A DNA stretch of 27,728 nucleotides. Origin: a virus. The notes below the pieces were generated by a model. That model searched no databases and was not told the DNA's origin. It was given only the letters and a program-made list of their open reading frames with translations. A program made the translations under genes and the position numbers. Where the stretch lies: the IMG/VR virus record IMGVR_UViG_3300021425_000142, positions 1 to 27,728 of that record; one strand, given 5' to 3'. Within the stretch, counting starts at the first letter, position 1; every line of letters begins with the position of its first letter. Of this stretch, positions 1-7,654 are shown piece by piece.

Positions 1-143
1 GTTGCAGGTCTTGGATCACATATATTGCACTCCGAGAAAAAAATGGAACGCAAAAAGAGCATATGGATATTGCTAAAGAATGTAAAAAAATCTTTGCCGA
101 GCAATTTCCTATCTGTACAGAAGCACTGGAGTGGACTATGTGA
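1..143 (+). CDS. thyX: Flavin-dependent thymidylate synthase ThyX, C-terminal end (5' truncated by window)
   Basis: Only the last 46 codons are visible, read in the frame whose first full codon is at 3-5; the stop is TGA at 141-143. The tail carries the ThyX C-terminal signature: an RSW..(Y/F)I.LR segment, then a helix with K/H residues (GTQKEHMDIAKECKKIF) and a terminal FPICTEALEW. In ThyX proteins the RS..(H/Y)F..LR region forms part of the dUMP/flavin pocket, and the enzyme makes dTMP with methylenetetrahydrofolate and FAD. This assignment rests on motif recognition of a fragment. A second frame (frame 1) is also open to position 183, but it shows no family resemblance. The gene is followed by a palindrome and a homing endonuclease gene, so it lies next to a mobile insertion. 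Confidence 0.8.
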   Translation, partial: CRSWITYIALREKNGTQKEHMDIAKECKKIFAEQFPICTEALEWTM

Positions 144-150
144 AAACTAT

Positions 151-174
151 CCTGTTATAAATATTTATAGCAGG
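151..174. promoter_or_regulatory. 24-bp near-perfect palindrome with a T4-type late promoter element on both strands
   Basis: Positions 151-174 form a perfect dyad except for one T.G wobble pair (155/170), with CCTG and CAGG at the ends. TATAAATA, the exact T4 late -10 octamer, lies on the + strand at 156-163. Because of the symmetry, the - strand also reads TATAAATA across the other half (162-169). The element sits 7 nt after the thyX stop and 9 nt before the HNH start. It could be a late promoter for the endonuclease, a bidirectional promoter, or a hairpin protecting the thyX mRNA 3' end. There is no following T-run, so a classical terminator is unlikely. Confidence 0.6.
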
Positions 175-183
175 ATAAAATGA

Positions 184-693
184 ATGAAACACAAACATCA
201 CATAATACCAAGATATGAAGGTGGAACTAATCTCCAAGAAAATCTTGTAGAATTATCCACAACTCAACATGCTATGTGGCATTATGCTGAATGGACTAGA
301 AAAAAGGATCAAAGAGATTATCTTGCCTGGAAATGCCTTTCTGGACAAATAGGAAAAGAAGAAATTCAAAGTATAAAATCTAAAATTGGTTATGCCAAAA
401 TGAAAGAACTTACAAAAGACGATCCGCATCCAGGAACTAAATTAAAAGGCAGGAAACAAACTGAAGAACATAAAAGAAATAGAAGTAAATCTCTTAAAGG
501 AAGAGTATGTTGTAGTCCAGAAGCAACACTAAGAATGAGAGAAACTAAAAGAAAACTAACGGAAGAACAAGTTAGAGAAATTAGAGCAAGTGAAGAAAAG
601 GGTATTATACTCGCCAATAAATATAACGTAACCCCATCATTGATTTCTCAAATTAGAAATAATAAAGCATCAGGTTATATGCACATAATTTAG
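184..693 (+). CDS. Free-standing HNH homing endonuclease with NUMOD3-like and helix-turn-helix DNA-binding parts
   Basis: This 169-aa protein begins with an HNH-type core: HHIIPR at residues 5-10, GGTN...N20LVELS, and a conserved His at 29 (TQHA). Such enzymes cut a specific DNA site to spread their own gene. A G(R)KQTEEHKRNRSKSLKGR block (about 88-107) resembles a NUMOD3 DNA-binding repeat. A C-terminal helix-turn-helix (about 125-161, LTEEQVREIRA...KYNVTPSLISQIRNNK) resembles the NUMOD/IENR DNA-recognition segments of homing endonucleases. The ATG at 184 is preceded by AGGA at 172-175. An alternative ATG at 180 opens only a 12-codon frame. The stop codon TAG (691-693) contributes to the Shine-Dalgarno of the next gene, so the insertion is seamless. 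No intron ends are visible; it looks intergenic, between thyX and an FmdB-like gene. Confidence 0.8.
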   Translation: MKHKHHIIPRYEGGTNLQENLVELSTTQHAMWHYAEWTRKKDQRDYLAWKCLSGQIGKEEIQSIKSKIGYAKMKELTKDDPHPGTKLKGRKQTEEHKRNRSKSLKGRVCCSPEATLRMRETKRKLTEEQVREIRASEEKGIILANKYNVTPSLISQIRNNKASGYMHII

Positions 694-705
694 GAGGTGA
701 AAATT

Positions 706-954
706 TTGGCTACATACCCAATTATTAATAAAAATACTGGTGAGCAAAAGGAAGTTAAGTTGAGTGTCCACGAATGGGATCAGTGGAAAGAAGACAATCC
801 CGATTGGACACGCGACTGGTCTGACCCATCTACTTGCCCTTCTCCTGGAGAAGTTGGTGAGTGGCGGGATAAACTAGTCAATAAAAATCCTGGATGGAAT
901 GAAGTTCTTGATAGAGCATCTAAGGCACCTGGTTCTAAAGTAAAAAAACTTTAA
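706..954 (+). CDS. Small FmdB-like cyanophage protein (TTG start)
   Basis: This 82-aa protein starts MATYPIINKNTGE and ends KAPGSKVKKL. The N-terminal TYPIINK..TGE..E pattern is that of small FmdB-type zinc-ribbon proteins found next to phoH in T4-like cyanophages, but only one Cys (TCPSPGE) is present, so no zinc ribbon is expected here. The start is judged to be TTG at 706, because a strong AGGAGG at 692-697 lies 8 nt upstream. The GTG at 697 overlaps that Shine-Dalgarno and is too close to be used. The protein is charged and Trp-rich (WDQWKEDNPDWTRDW), with no membrane segment. Its function is unknown; the family placement is tentative. Confidence 0.65.
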   Translation: MATYPIINKNTGEQKEVKLSVHEWDQWKEDNPDWTRDWSDPSTCPSPGEVGEWRDKLVNKNPGWNEVLDRASKAPGSKVKKL

Positions 955-963
955 TTTAAATCT

Positions 964-1719
964 ATGGCAAGAAAGAAGAGAGGACAAGACCAACAGATTG
1001 GAGTTGGACTTACGGCTAGACAACTTAAAAAGAAAAAACTTTACTCAACTGACTACCTTACAAATATCGAACCGATGACTCCGAATCAGGAGCGAGTGTT
1101 CAATTCATATGCTGAAGGTAAACATATTGTTTCTTATGGTTGTGCTGGAACTGGAAAAACGTTTATAACTCTCTATAATGCCATCAAAGACGTATTAAGT
1201 GACTATACACCATACGAAAAAATTTACTTGGTTCGTTCTCTTGTAGCAACTAGAGAAATTGGTTTCCTTCCTGGTACACACGAAGATAAAGCAGACATTT
1301 ACCAGATTCCTTACAAGAATATGGTGAAGTATATGTTTGAGTTCCCAGATGATGCTGATTTTGAGATGCTTTATGGAAATCTTAAGTCACAGGAAATCAT
1401 TAAGTTCTGGAGCACATCATTCCTTCGTGGAACAACGCTTGATAATGCTATTATCATTGTTGATGAGTTTCAGAACCTCAACTTCCATGAGTTAGATTCT
1501 ATTATCACCCGTGTTGGCGAAGATAGTAAGATCTGTTTCTGTGGAGATATTATGCAGTCCGATCTTCGCAAGGCAGATGAAAAGAATGGTATTGTAGATT
1601 TTATGTCAGTGTTGCAAAAAATGCCGTCTTTTGATATAATTGAATTTGGACTAGGTGATATTGTTCGTTCTGGTCTTGTTAAAGAGTATCTAGTTGCAAA
1701 AATTGAAGCAGGTATTTGA
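964..1719 (+). CDS. phoH: PhoH-like P-loop ATPase
   Basis: This 251-aa protein has the PhoH ATPase core: Walker A GCAGTGKT at residues 59-66, Walker B IIIVDEFQN at 163-171, a sensor-like CFCGDIMQSD at 191-200, and the C-terminal GDIVRSGLVKEY motif at 231-242. A lysine-rich N-terminus (residues 1-26) precedes the core. PhoH-like genes are near-universal in marine T4-like phages. Host PhoH is part of the phosphate regulon, while the phage protein's role (RNA or nucleotide metabolism) is not settled. The ATG at 964 follows the upstream gene by 9 nt. The stop TGA (1717-1719) overlaps the next gene's ATG as TGATG, so translation is probably coupled. Confidence 0.93.
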   Translation: MARKKRGQDQQIGVGLTARQLKKKKLYSTDYLTNIEPMTPNQERVFNSYAEGKHIVSYGCAGTGKTFITLYNAIKDVLSDYTPYEKIYLVRSLVATREIGFLPGTHEDKADIYQIPYKNMVKYMFEFPDDADFEMLYGNLKSQEIIKFWSTSFLRGTTLDNAIIIVDEFQNLNFHELDSIITRVGEDSKICFCGDIMQSDLRKADEKNGIVDFMSVLQKMPSFDIIEFGLGDIVRSGLVKEYLVAKIEAGI

Positions 1720-2399
1720 TGTTTACACATGTTGATTTGATCCTCCCTCGTCTTTCGAGGGAAACTATAGATGGTGTTCGTTATTATTCTGTCCCTGACG
1801 AAGAAGAACTTCTCAAACTGGTCTCGATTACATCGGTGACCAGTCATTTTAATAAGGAAATTTTTGAGAAGTGGCGCAAAAAAGTTGGAGAAGAGAAAGC
1901 AAATAAGATTACCAAAGCTGCCACAGATCGTGGCACCGACATGCACACTCTTGTTGAGGATTACCTACATAATCGGATTTTATCCGATGTTCGACCCATA
2001 TCTGAGTTTTTGTTCAAGATTTGTAAAGGAGAATTAAATAATATAAATAACATACATGCTCTCGAAGGGTCTCTGTATAGCAAAGCATTGGGAATTGCAG
2101 GGACAGTCGATTGTATCGCTGAGTATAACGGCGAGTTAGCGATAATCGATTTTAAGACATCTAAGAAACCGAAACCGCGAGAGTGGATCGATCACTACTT
2201 CGTTCAGTGTGCTGCTTATGCTTGTATGCTGTTTGAACTGACTGATATTCCGGTCAAAAAATTTGTAATCATCATGGCATGTGAAAATGGAGAATGCGTC
2301 GTTTATGAAGAATATGACAAAGCAAAGTACATCAAACTTCTCACCAAATATATTGGAAAGTTTGTTAGAGATAAATTGGAACTCTATGGAACCAAATAA
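1719..2399 (+). CDS. RecB/Cas4-like PD-(D/E)XK exonuclease
   Basis: This 226-aa protein has a RecB-family nuclease core. It contains RGTDMHTLVE with the conserved His at about 76, then Glu116 (ALEG), Asp131 (AGTVDCI), the DFK motif at 144-146 (AIIDFKTSKKPK), and the RecB-type QxxxY motif at 163-167 (QCAAYA). These residues bind the metal and position the scissile strand in this family. The protein probably processes DNA ends during replication, recombination or host DNA breakdown. It is a widespread cyanomyovirus gene of uncertain exact role. The ATG at 1719 shares its A with the phoH stop; the overlapping TTG at 1716 is a less likely start. Confidence 0.82.
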   Translation: MFTHVDLILPRLSRETIDGVRYYSVPDEEELLKLVSITSVTSHFNKEIFEKWRKKVGEEKANKITKAATDRGTDMHTLVEDYLHNRILSDVRPISEFLFKICKGELNNINNIHALEGSLYSKALGIAGTVDCIAEYNGELAIIDFKTSKKPKPREWIDHYFVQCAAYACMLFELTDIPVKKFVIIMACENGECVVYEEYDKAKYIKLLTKYIGKFVRDKLELYGTK

Positions 2400-2646
2400 A
2401 GAGCTAGAAAAAGCAATAGAAAGTAAATTTCTAAGTTCAGCAAAATTCGCACTGGAGATCGAAAAGATCGTCATCGAAGAAAAGGTCAATTACATTGATG
2501 CAATTATTCATTATTGCGAAATCAATGAACTTGAGATAGAATCGATTACGAAACTTGTATCGAAACCTTTGAAGGAACGATTGAAGTGGGATGCTATTCG
2601 TCTCAACTTCATGAAGAAAACTTCAAGGGCAAAACTTCCCCTATGA
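2386..2646 (+). CDS. 33: Late promoter transcription accessory protein gp33
   Basis: This 86-aa protein starts at the ATG 14 nt before the exonuclease stop (MEPNKELEKAIESK). An upstream extension of the frame lies wholly within the exonuclease gene and is not needed. The central YIDAIIHYCEINELEIE...KLVSKPLKERLK segment followed by NFMKKTSRAKLPL is the pattern of short gp33 homologues in T4-like cyanophages. In T4, gp33 bridges host RNA polymerase (beta flap) and the gp45 sliding clamp, so that gp55-dependent late transcription is activated. The late promoter elements found elsewhere in this window are its expected targets. The stop overlaps the next start as ATGA. Recognition is by pattern only, as gp33 is poorly conserved outside cyanophages. 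Confidence 0.7.
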   Translation: MEPNKELEKAIESKFLSSAKFALEIEKIVIEEKVNYIDAIIHYCEINELEIESITKLVSKPLKERLKWDAIRLNFMKKTSRAKLPL

Positions 2647-2858
2647 ATTCAGTTTCCCGTGATGAATTGATGCATCAACGCCTTCAGGCGTGGTTGCGTG
2701 AGTATAAGTGTGATGACCTCAAGTATCTTGGTTTTCACGAAGATATCTATGGAGTTGCAAAGCATTGGTATTCCATTGCTGGCAATGAGGTTTCAGTTGA
2801 TTGTATTGAAGATTTTGACCCTGAAGATTTAGATCCTGATGAAAGTGACTCCCTTTGA
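2643..2858 (+). CDS. Hypothetical 71-aa acidic protein
   Basis: This small protein starts at the ATG that overlaps the gp33 stop (ATGA), which argues for coupled translation. It reads MNSVSRDELMHQRLQAWLREYKC..., with a helical N-terminal half and a very acidic C-terminus (EDFDPEDLDPDESDSL). I do not recognise the family. Its position between gp33 and gp59 suggests a replication or transcription accessory role, but this is only context. Its last 20 nt overlap the start of gp59. A longer in-frame extension upstream to 2586 lies inside gp33 and is unlikely to be translated. Confidence 0.6.
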   Translation: MNSVSRDELMHQRLQAWLREYKCDDLKYLGFHEDIYGVAKHWYSIAGNEVSVDCIEDFDPEDLDPDESDSL

Positions 2859-3438
2859 AACCTATCAACATTATTTGTCTCTCAAAAATCATTTTACAAA
2901 TCCCAAATACGACTTCTTCAAATACGGAGCCAAAACCAGGGCAAGTTTGGCGTCATTTAACAAACGACGCGATAAATATTGGTTCGAGAAAACTTCCCGT
3001 AAGTATTCCGATAAAGAAATCGTTCAGTTTTTGGTATCCAATTTTGCAGCATCAGACAACCCCCAAAACCTATGGATTGGAGAGATTATAAATTCTGGCG
3101 AAAGGAACTACGCCGACTGGATGAGACGACAGCAGAGTTTGAAGTATCACTTCAAAGAACAATCGAAGAAATTGCTATCCGAAAACAGCTTGGAGAATGT
3201 TTTCAAATGTACGAAGAAGCATCCAATCATCCTGAAAAAGTTTCTAGGTGGAGAAGTATCTCTAGATACGCTAGTAATTTACGAAAAAATCTTCCATTTT
3301 TCAAAAAACTACGATGAGAAACTAAAAGACGATCCTGTTTGGCCTCTTGTTAGTTTGAAGATTACAAAGTACAATCAATTTCTAAATATTAACATATTTG
3401 AGTTCAAACATATTTTAAGAGAAATAGTAAATGAATAA
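2839..3438 (+). CDS. 59: Helicase loader gp59
   Basis: This 199-aa protein (T4 gp59 is 217 aa) loads the replicative helicase gp41 onto gp32-coated forked DNA. The diagnostic N-terminal pattern is intact: YQHYLSLKNHFTNPKYDFFKYGAKTR, then KRRDKYWFEKTSRKY, then an (I/V)xFLVSNF..(Q/D)xxWIGEI segment. These match T4's KYDVIKYN, KRRDKYFFQKLSEKY and FISNL...WIGDI blocks. The C-terminal half is helical and basic, like the T4 C-terminal domain. The gene overlaps the upstream 71-aa gene by 20 nt, and its stop overlaps the next start by 8 nt. It is transcribed with phoH, the exonuclease and gp33. Confidence 0.9.
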   Translation: MKVTPFETYQHYLSLKNHFTNPKYDFFKYGAKTRASLASFNKRRDKYWFEKTSRKYSDKEIVQFLVSNFAASDNPQNLWIGEIINSGERNYADWMRRQQSLKYHFKEQSKKLLSENSLENVFKCTKKHPIILKKFLGGEVSLDTLVIYEKIFHFSKNYDEKLKDDPVWPLVSLKITKYNQFLNINIFEFKHILREIVNE

Positions 3439-7172: not shown

Positions 7173-7613
7173 TTAGTATCTGATGTTTAGATCTTCTTCA
7201 GTTAGTATTCTGAATTCATAACCACGATCAGCACACCACTCTTTTGCAACTGCCCACTTAGATTGATTCTTGGCATACTCCTTTGCCTCAAAAATATACC
7301 CCTTGGTTATATTATTTGGTTTCTTGGGAGCGCGGCACTGTCTCTTGGGTTTTATTTCAACGACATAGTTTATGATCTTTCCAGAACTGGTCTGTTCTTT
7401 GACCATGAAATCTGGGAAGTATTTGTGAATTCTTCCATCAATAGGTGATCTGTAAGGGATGAAGAATTCTTCACTGGACCATAGTAGAATATTTTCATTA
7501 GTATCTAAGTATTTCATGTACTTTCTTTCCCACAAAGATCTATAGATGATGTTTGATGGGTTTCCGCTATATTTGTTTGGATAAGAGGGTTTGTACTTTC
7601 CTTTGTAAGCCAT
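7173..7613 (-). CDS. 4: Head completion protein gp4
   Basis: This 146-aa protein (T4 gp4, also called gp50 or gp65, is 150 aa) completes the head after packaging so that the tail can join. It aligns closely with T4: MAYKGKYKPSYPNKYSG, then ITYRS-type IIYRSLWERKYMKYLDTN, a YFPDFMV..(D/E) strand, VVEIKPKRQCRAPKKP, WAVAKEWCADRGYEFRILTEEDL. The PDF...EIKPK arrangement is that of the TnsA/PD-(D/E)XK nuclease fold shared by this family. It is the first gene of the - strand late operon and is transcribed away from a symmetrical divergent promoter region whose element (7646-7653) lies 33 nt upstream. Confidence 0.93.
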   Translation of the reverse strand: MAYKGKYKPSYPNKYSGNPSNIIYRSLWERKYMKYLDTNENILLWSSEEFFIPYRSPIDGRIHKYFPDFMVKEQTSSGKIINYVVEIKPKRQCRAPKKPNNITKGYIFEAKEYAKNQSKWAVAKEWCADRGYEFRILTEEDLNIRY

Positions 7614-7653
7614 CTAAATACTTATACTAAAAGTGTTCAATATAGGTATTTAG
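7614..7653. promoter_or_regulatory. Divergent pair of late promoter elements in an inverted repeat
   Basis: CTAAATAC is present on the + strand at 7614-7621 and on the - strand at 7653-7646, as exact inverted copies at the two edges of the intergenic region. Each lies 33 nt from the start codon it would serve (+ strand gene at 7655, gp4 at 7613). Each also abuts the start codon of the opposite gene. The sequence resembles the T4 late -10 (TATAAATA) with the core TAAATA intact. No sigma70 -35 is seen, which fits late promoters. Confidence 0.7.
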
Positions 7654-7654
7654 T

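Follow-up and report, generated by a model that had tools for sequence, protein, structure and literature searches.

A palindromic late promoter as a probable expression switch of an HNH homing endonuclease gene in a cyanophage-type virus

Late promoters of the T4 (gp55) type have no −35 element. In the viral genome studied here, an octamer of this type lies inside a palindrome, on both strands, directly upstream of an HNH homing endonuclease gene, which raises the question of what the palindrome is for. We analysed the 27,728-nt stretch of DNA that contains it (positions 1 to 27,728 of IMG/VR record IMGVR_UViG_3300021425_000142; hereafter the window), and computed the dyad, its fold and the burial of the ribosome site, as well as how the structure is distributed between relatives with the HNH gene and loci that lack it. 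We conclude, with a probability of roughly 0.87, that the palindrome is an expression switch of the endonuclease gene, in which RNA read through from the upstream gene is locked and late RNA is unlocked.

A dyad with late octamers before the HNH gene

The window opens with the 3′ end of thyX (3..143, plus strand; the rest lies outside the window), which matches PHROG 10644, thymidylate synthase, with an E value of 6e-16 and scores 23.5 bits against Pfam Thy1, slightly below the cut-off of 24.8. The HNH homing endonuclease gene (184..693, plus strand, 169 aa) is assigned by PHROG 655, homing endonuclease (E 1.4e-12), its Pfam HNH match being below cut-off (E 0.0035, 17.9 bits against 21.4); the best Pfam match, YscO, was also below cut-off and was judged spurious. 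The next gene (706..954, plus strand), whose TTG start at 706 is inferred by comparison with relatives, had been called fmdB in a preliminary description of the locus. That name was not confirmed, as the gene has no Pfam family at E 0.001; it matches PHROG 385, ‘transcriptional regulator’. The genes 3′ of the HNH gene in the window are phrog_385, phoH, an exonuclease gene and gp32, which we take to be part of an early replication region.

Between thyX and the HNH gene, where the preliminary description had located it, lies a 24-bp dyad (151–174, CCTGTTATAAATATTTATAGCAGG) with one T.G (U.G) pair. Our analysis recovers this dyad and extends it to 30 bp (148–177, TATCCTGTTATAAATATTTATAGCAGGATA), an inverted repeat whose plus-strand RNA is predicted to form a hairpin with 13 stem pairs and a loop of 4 nt. 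No other 30-bp dyad in the window reaches 14 of 15 matched pairs, and 300 dinucleotide shuffles of the window yielded none of this quality. A 20-base exact piece of the hairpin had no match in viral contigs, and an Rfam search over positions 1–3000 returned two matches only, both under gathering scores and unrelated.

The late octamer TATAAATA, described earlier as exact on both strands, is indeed found at 156–163 on the plus strand, where it is a putative promoter, and at 162–169 on the minus strand. Its frequency is unremarkable, with four occurrences in the window against 2.8 expected, a number reached by 30 of 100 shuffles. As for placement, five of the 13 ATAAATA sites of the window (the hairpin site included) lie 20–50 nt before one of the 27 listed gene starts used in the test, compared with 0.27 expected, and none of 5000 random placements matched this, which makes it plausible that the phage uses late boxes. 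Late promoters of the form NATAAATA are reported in cyanophages (PMC2984593). Furthermore, the T4 late box begins at −13, roughly a helical turn ahead of the transcription start (PMC2988020), and the late transcription start is therefore predicted near position 169 of the plus strand.

The sense-strand RNA of 148–177 folds with a predicted energy of −15.4 kcal/mol (z −7.6), and the HNH start region has the most stable fold among the 27 start regions folded in the window. Specifically, the 5′ arm TATCCTG (148..154, plus strand) pairs with the 3′ arm CAGGATA (171..177, plus strand), which contains AGGA at 172–175. Because it is positioned 8 nt before the ATG at 184, this AGGA is likely to serve the HNH gene as its Shine-Dalgarno site, while TATAAATA at 156–163 occupies the upper 5′ arm and the loop. 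In RNA read through from thyX, AGGA has a predicted probability of being unpaired of 0.001; in RNA beginning at 169, the value is 0.89, and no stable fold is predicted for RNA 169–215.

Elsewhere in the window, the gap at 7614–7654 between divergent genes starting at 7613 (minus strand) and 7655 (plus strand) folds strongly on both sides, the flanking start regions (−13.2 and −10.9 kcal/mol) ranking second to the HNH start. The minus-strand gene (7173–7613), near tail genes, matches the TnsA-like endonuclease N-terminal domain (Pfam E 1.5e-21).

The hairpin in loci with and without the HNH gene

Searching IMG/VR with the HNH protein yielded 190 relatives, and the best 80 entered the analysis. 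Twenty of these (L001–L020) are near-full-length, with 59–91% identity, and together with the window make up 21 copies, which are related to one another and reduce to 18 distinct rows. All 20 near-full-length relatives have the octamer and the same kind of stem directly before the ATG. This recurrence bears on the view that the structure is a terminator, an RNA-stability stem or a chance palindrome with no role in endonuclease expression, to which its position as a stem-loop between two genes lends some colour. We hold that view to be very improbable: no terminator-like site was found in 1–1000, no T run follows the stem on the plus strand, the shuffles yielded no such dyad, and octamer and stem return in all 20 near-full-length relatives.

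Within the 21 copies, the forward octamer is invariant, as is TATCCT of the 5′ arm, whereas the reverse octamer is kept in only four, so true palindromy is not the conserved trait. The preliminary description had considered a bidirectional late promoter, which would also send antisense RNA into thyX; the exact octamer on both strands of the window speaks for it, but the absence of the reverse octamer from 17 of 21 copies makes it highly unlikely. We judge the reverse-strand octamer to be a by-product of the dyad and no second promoter.

What the copies share is pairing. In the 18 distinct rows, 95.5% of the stem cells are paired, as against 31–56% when the partner is slid by 1–3 columns. Covariation is weak, because the single compensatory change (L020, G-C to A-U) was equalled in 73 of 500 shuffles; five of 11 stem pairs show no variation at all. 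In addition, U.G pairs occur at three stem positions across the copies and the spacer between the arms ranges from 16 to 22 nt, which together favour RNA over a rigid DNA operator.

Such an operator would be an inverted repeat bound by a dimeric protein, or by the endonuclease itself, to repress the late promoter. I-TevI does bind an operator over its own late promoter (PMC2988022), and the 5′ half of the dyad resembles codons 4–9 of the next gene. However, a rigid two-site operator should tolerate neither the variable spacer nor the U.G pairs, which are mismatches in DNA, and it leaves the constant position of the Shine-Dalgarno site in the 3′ arm unexplained. As a replacement for the hairpin, the operator thus appears quite unlikely; an operator role may exist in addition to it.

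The predicted release of the Shine-Dalgarno site recurs as well. In 17 of the 21 copies (the window included), its probability of being unpaired does not exceed 0.011 in read-through RNA and is 0.515 or higher in RNA beginning at the predicted late start. The site is less well buried in the read-through RNA of the other four copies (L011 and L017–L019; 0.25–0.26). In L011, where one base of the site differs, the value goes from 0.26 to 0.74; L017–L019 have TGGA at the site, and no release is predicted (0.25 to 0.26–0.29).

Farther out, a stem of this type is found in none of the 60 more distant HNH relatives (the rest of the best 80 of 190), which means that the switch does not extend to the wider HNH family as a whole; TATAAATA lies between −50 and +9 in 19 of these 60. 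In two of them, L079 and L080, another kind of hairpin is present, with its end next to AGGAG. The named-phage collection contains distant HNH relatives only (at best 46% identity over 80 residues or 51% over 61), and among eight chosen out of 49 records, seven have an ATAAATA box at most 75 nt from the start. The related HNH gene of phage S-SKS1 (L186), located elsewhere, has at about 945–1003 a hairpin of −26.7 kcal/mol with GATAAATA inside, directly before the ATG; that region has no clear Shine-Dalgarno site.

The surroundings of the occupied loci vary on the upstream side. phoH is downstream in all 20, and the thyX type of the window is recognised upstream in 15. In L004, L011 and L012 the upstream protein is another one, ThyX-like, alike among the three and about 25% identical to some of the others; the grouping by upstream gene leaves out L005 and L009. 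In L012, the stop codon of the upstream gene is followed by what resembles the last part of the other thyX, which would fit replacement of one thyX by the other.

Loci without the HNH gene were collected through the downstream gene, not through thyX. A scan with that gene gave at least 597 relatives, the best 80 of which were taken as loci. Two of these have the HNH gene upstream of phrog_385, both on contigs already among L001–L020, and 78 do not; the hairpin is present in both occupied loci and in none of the 78. Three phage records (S-SKS1, S-BM3 and AG-345-L05) likewise have no HNH gene upstream of the downstream gene. The intact palindrome is thus found in none of 81 HNH-free loci, where the best dyad reaches 10 of 15 pairs and the start regions fold with a mean of −4.4 kcal/mol (lowest −10.0), compared with −14.7 at the 21 HNH starts. 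Within 60 nt, four of the 81 loci have TATAAATA and 33 have another NATAAATA.

Conversely, a scan for the full hairpin pattern returned 15 contigs, every one with this HNH start adjoining; 12 of the 15 were already among L001–L020, L165 was read on the opposite strand, and L172 is cut by the contig end. The earlier proposal that the promoter was brought with the endonuclease gains support from its presence in 20 of 20 relatives and absence from the HNH-free loci.

The insert may also have affected the next gene. In all 21 occupied loci the downstream gene seems to begin with TTG, as against ATG at that codon in 77 of the 81 HNH-free ones, and in the window AGGAGG at 692–697 overlaps the HNH stop codon. 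From these sequences, the HNH insert may bring a new ribosome site and alter the downstream start codon. Four HNH-free loci (L098, L101, L103 and L107) have TTG and, immediately ahead of the start of phrog_385, AGGAGGTGA, which is similar to the HNH insert at its 3′ end; they may be scars left by an insert since lost, or a distinct native allele.

Likeness of the 5′ half to the downstream gene

High scores of 140–183 against empty junctions led to a likeness that lies within codons 4–9 of the downstream gene. In a shuffle test of 140–183 on 12 loci picked from the 78, p was below 0.1 in L089, L094 and L153 and at least 0.25 in nine, and this result is not used as evidence. TATCCTGTTATAAATA (148–163), read in frame, encodes Y-P-V-I-N, which is common at codons 4–8 of the downstream gene, being present in 14 of 48 distinct starts. 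Its identity to codons 4–9 averages 12.4 of 16 over the 78 HNH-free loci, a post hoc observation on loci that are related. Within the window, 148–163 agrees with 715–730 at 12 of 16 positions, and the figure reaches 15 of 16 in HNH-free loci.

The likeness is placed at one point. Across 452 kb, taken on both strands, 18 matches reached 14 or 15 positions, and every one fell at codons 4–9; none of 1000 shuffled 16-mers did as well as 148–163, and on 20 loci only two of 3959 16-mers of the window did so, namely 148–163 itself and one in the downstream gene of the window. Against a synonymous-codon null, the identity was 12.44 versus 12.77, and the null was not exceeded; occupied loci, at 12.1 of 16, are no less alike to 148–163 than empty ones. 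Moreover, the exact 16-mer occurs in 54 stretches of viral contigs, of which 19 are at HNH genes, 33 are in unrelated places, two further ones (L172 and L228) are HNH starts cut by the sequence end, and none is a phrog_385 start. Because it occurs exactly in 33 unrelated places, the 16-mer alone is not specific. The likeness of the 5′ half to the beginning of the downstream gene does not establish the palindrome as the remains of the endonuclease's target site.

A tentative and, on balance, unlikely proposal is that 148–163 has three roles, as anti-Shine-Dalgarno strand, as late promoter and as a near copy of a putative endonuclease recognition site at codons 4–9. The operator of I-TevI resembles its own homing site at 15 of 20 positions (PMC2988022). 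If the triple role held, the enzyme would repress its own synthesis by binding to its promoter, in the manner of I-TevI, and a copy of the target may have given rise to the entire switch; one short sequence would then join target recognition, transcription control and translation control.

The proposed late switch and its counterparts

In the switch that we favour, the hairpin at 148–177 would bury the Shine-Dalgarno site in long RNA entering from thyX, and the endonuclease would not be made. Late in infection, a gp55-type RNA polymerase would start near 169 from TATAAATA inside the hairpin. The resulting RNA would lack the 5′ arm, leaving the Shine-Dalgarno site free, and the endonuclease would be made. 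The steps that we infer are read-through early in infection, use of the promoter, where late RNA starts and when the endonuclease is translated.

Several known systems are arranged in this manner. As described in PMC2988022, a hairpin covers the ribosome-binding site of I-TevI and an internal late promoter yields RNA without the 5′ arm, and similar arrangements are described for I-TevII, I-TevIII, segB and Aeh1 mobE. For T4 gene e, PMC3014915 describes late boxes inside an inhibitory hairpin over the ribosome-binding site. Folded in the same way as the window, the T4 leaders gave −17.3 kcal/mol for I-TevI, with AATAAATA in the 5′ part, −31.5 kcal/mol for a longer stretch of segB and −14.9 kcal/mol for gene e, all three with an ATAAATA box in the hairpin; the leader of T4's own mobE had no such box.

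The counterparts differ from the window in instructive ways. I-TevI shares the ribosome-site hairpin with an internal late promoter, but it is a GIY-YIG enzyme encoded inside the td intron, whereas the HNH gene is free-standing; its box overlaps the base of the 5′ arm, whereas that of the window lies past the anti-Shine-Dalgarno strand, in the upper part of the arm and the loop. An operator bound by the enzyme is shown for I-TevI and would be a candidate feature in the window. T4 segB and Aeh1 mobE are free-standing homing endonuclease genes, like the HNH gene of the window, and are said in PMC2988022 to be similarly arranged in promoter and hairpin; segB is of the GIY-YIG type and lies among tRNA genes, unlike the window, while mobE is HNH. 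Gene e has the same layout, with TATAAATA in the hairpin, but is a phage lysis gene and not a mobile endonuclease gene. Outside these systems, the psbA leader of cyanophage S-PM2d has a 36-bp inverted repeat, a probable RNA hairpin and an upstream Gp55-type site, and thus resembles the window; unlike the window, it precedes a photosynthesis gene, and PMC5931967 discusses it in connection with light regulation.

Among the papers listed by full-text literature searches, none dealt with a hairpin of the endonuclease gene between thyX and phoH. By analogy, the hairpin of the HNH gene would be a new example of the control scheme known from T4 for I-TevI, segB, mobE and lysozyme. The ‘silent until late’ hairpin of T4 would then have a counterpart in uncultivated cyanophage-type viruses, in a family of HNH endonucleases in which the switch accompanies the gene, occurring in all 20 near-full-length relatives and in none of the 81 loci without it. 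For testing the rule, nature offers 18 distinct variants, among which four should, by prediction, work poorly or not at all. The case would also show how a late promoter can appear palindromic, because the dyad would be an RNA hairpin that covers the Shine-Dalgarno site.
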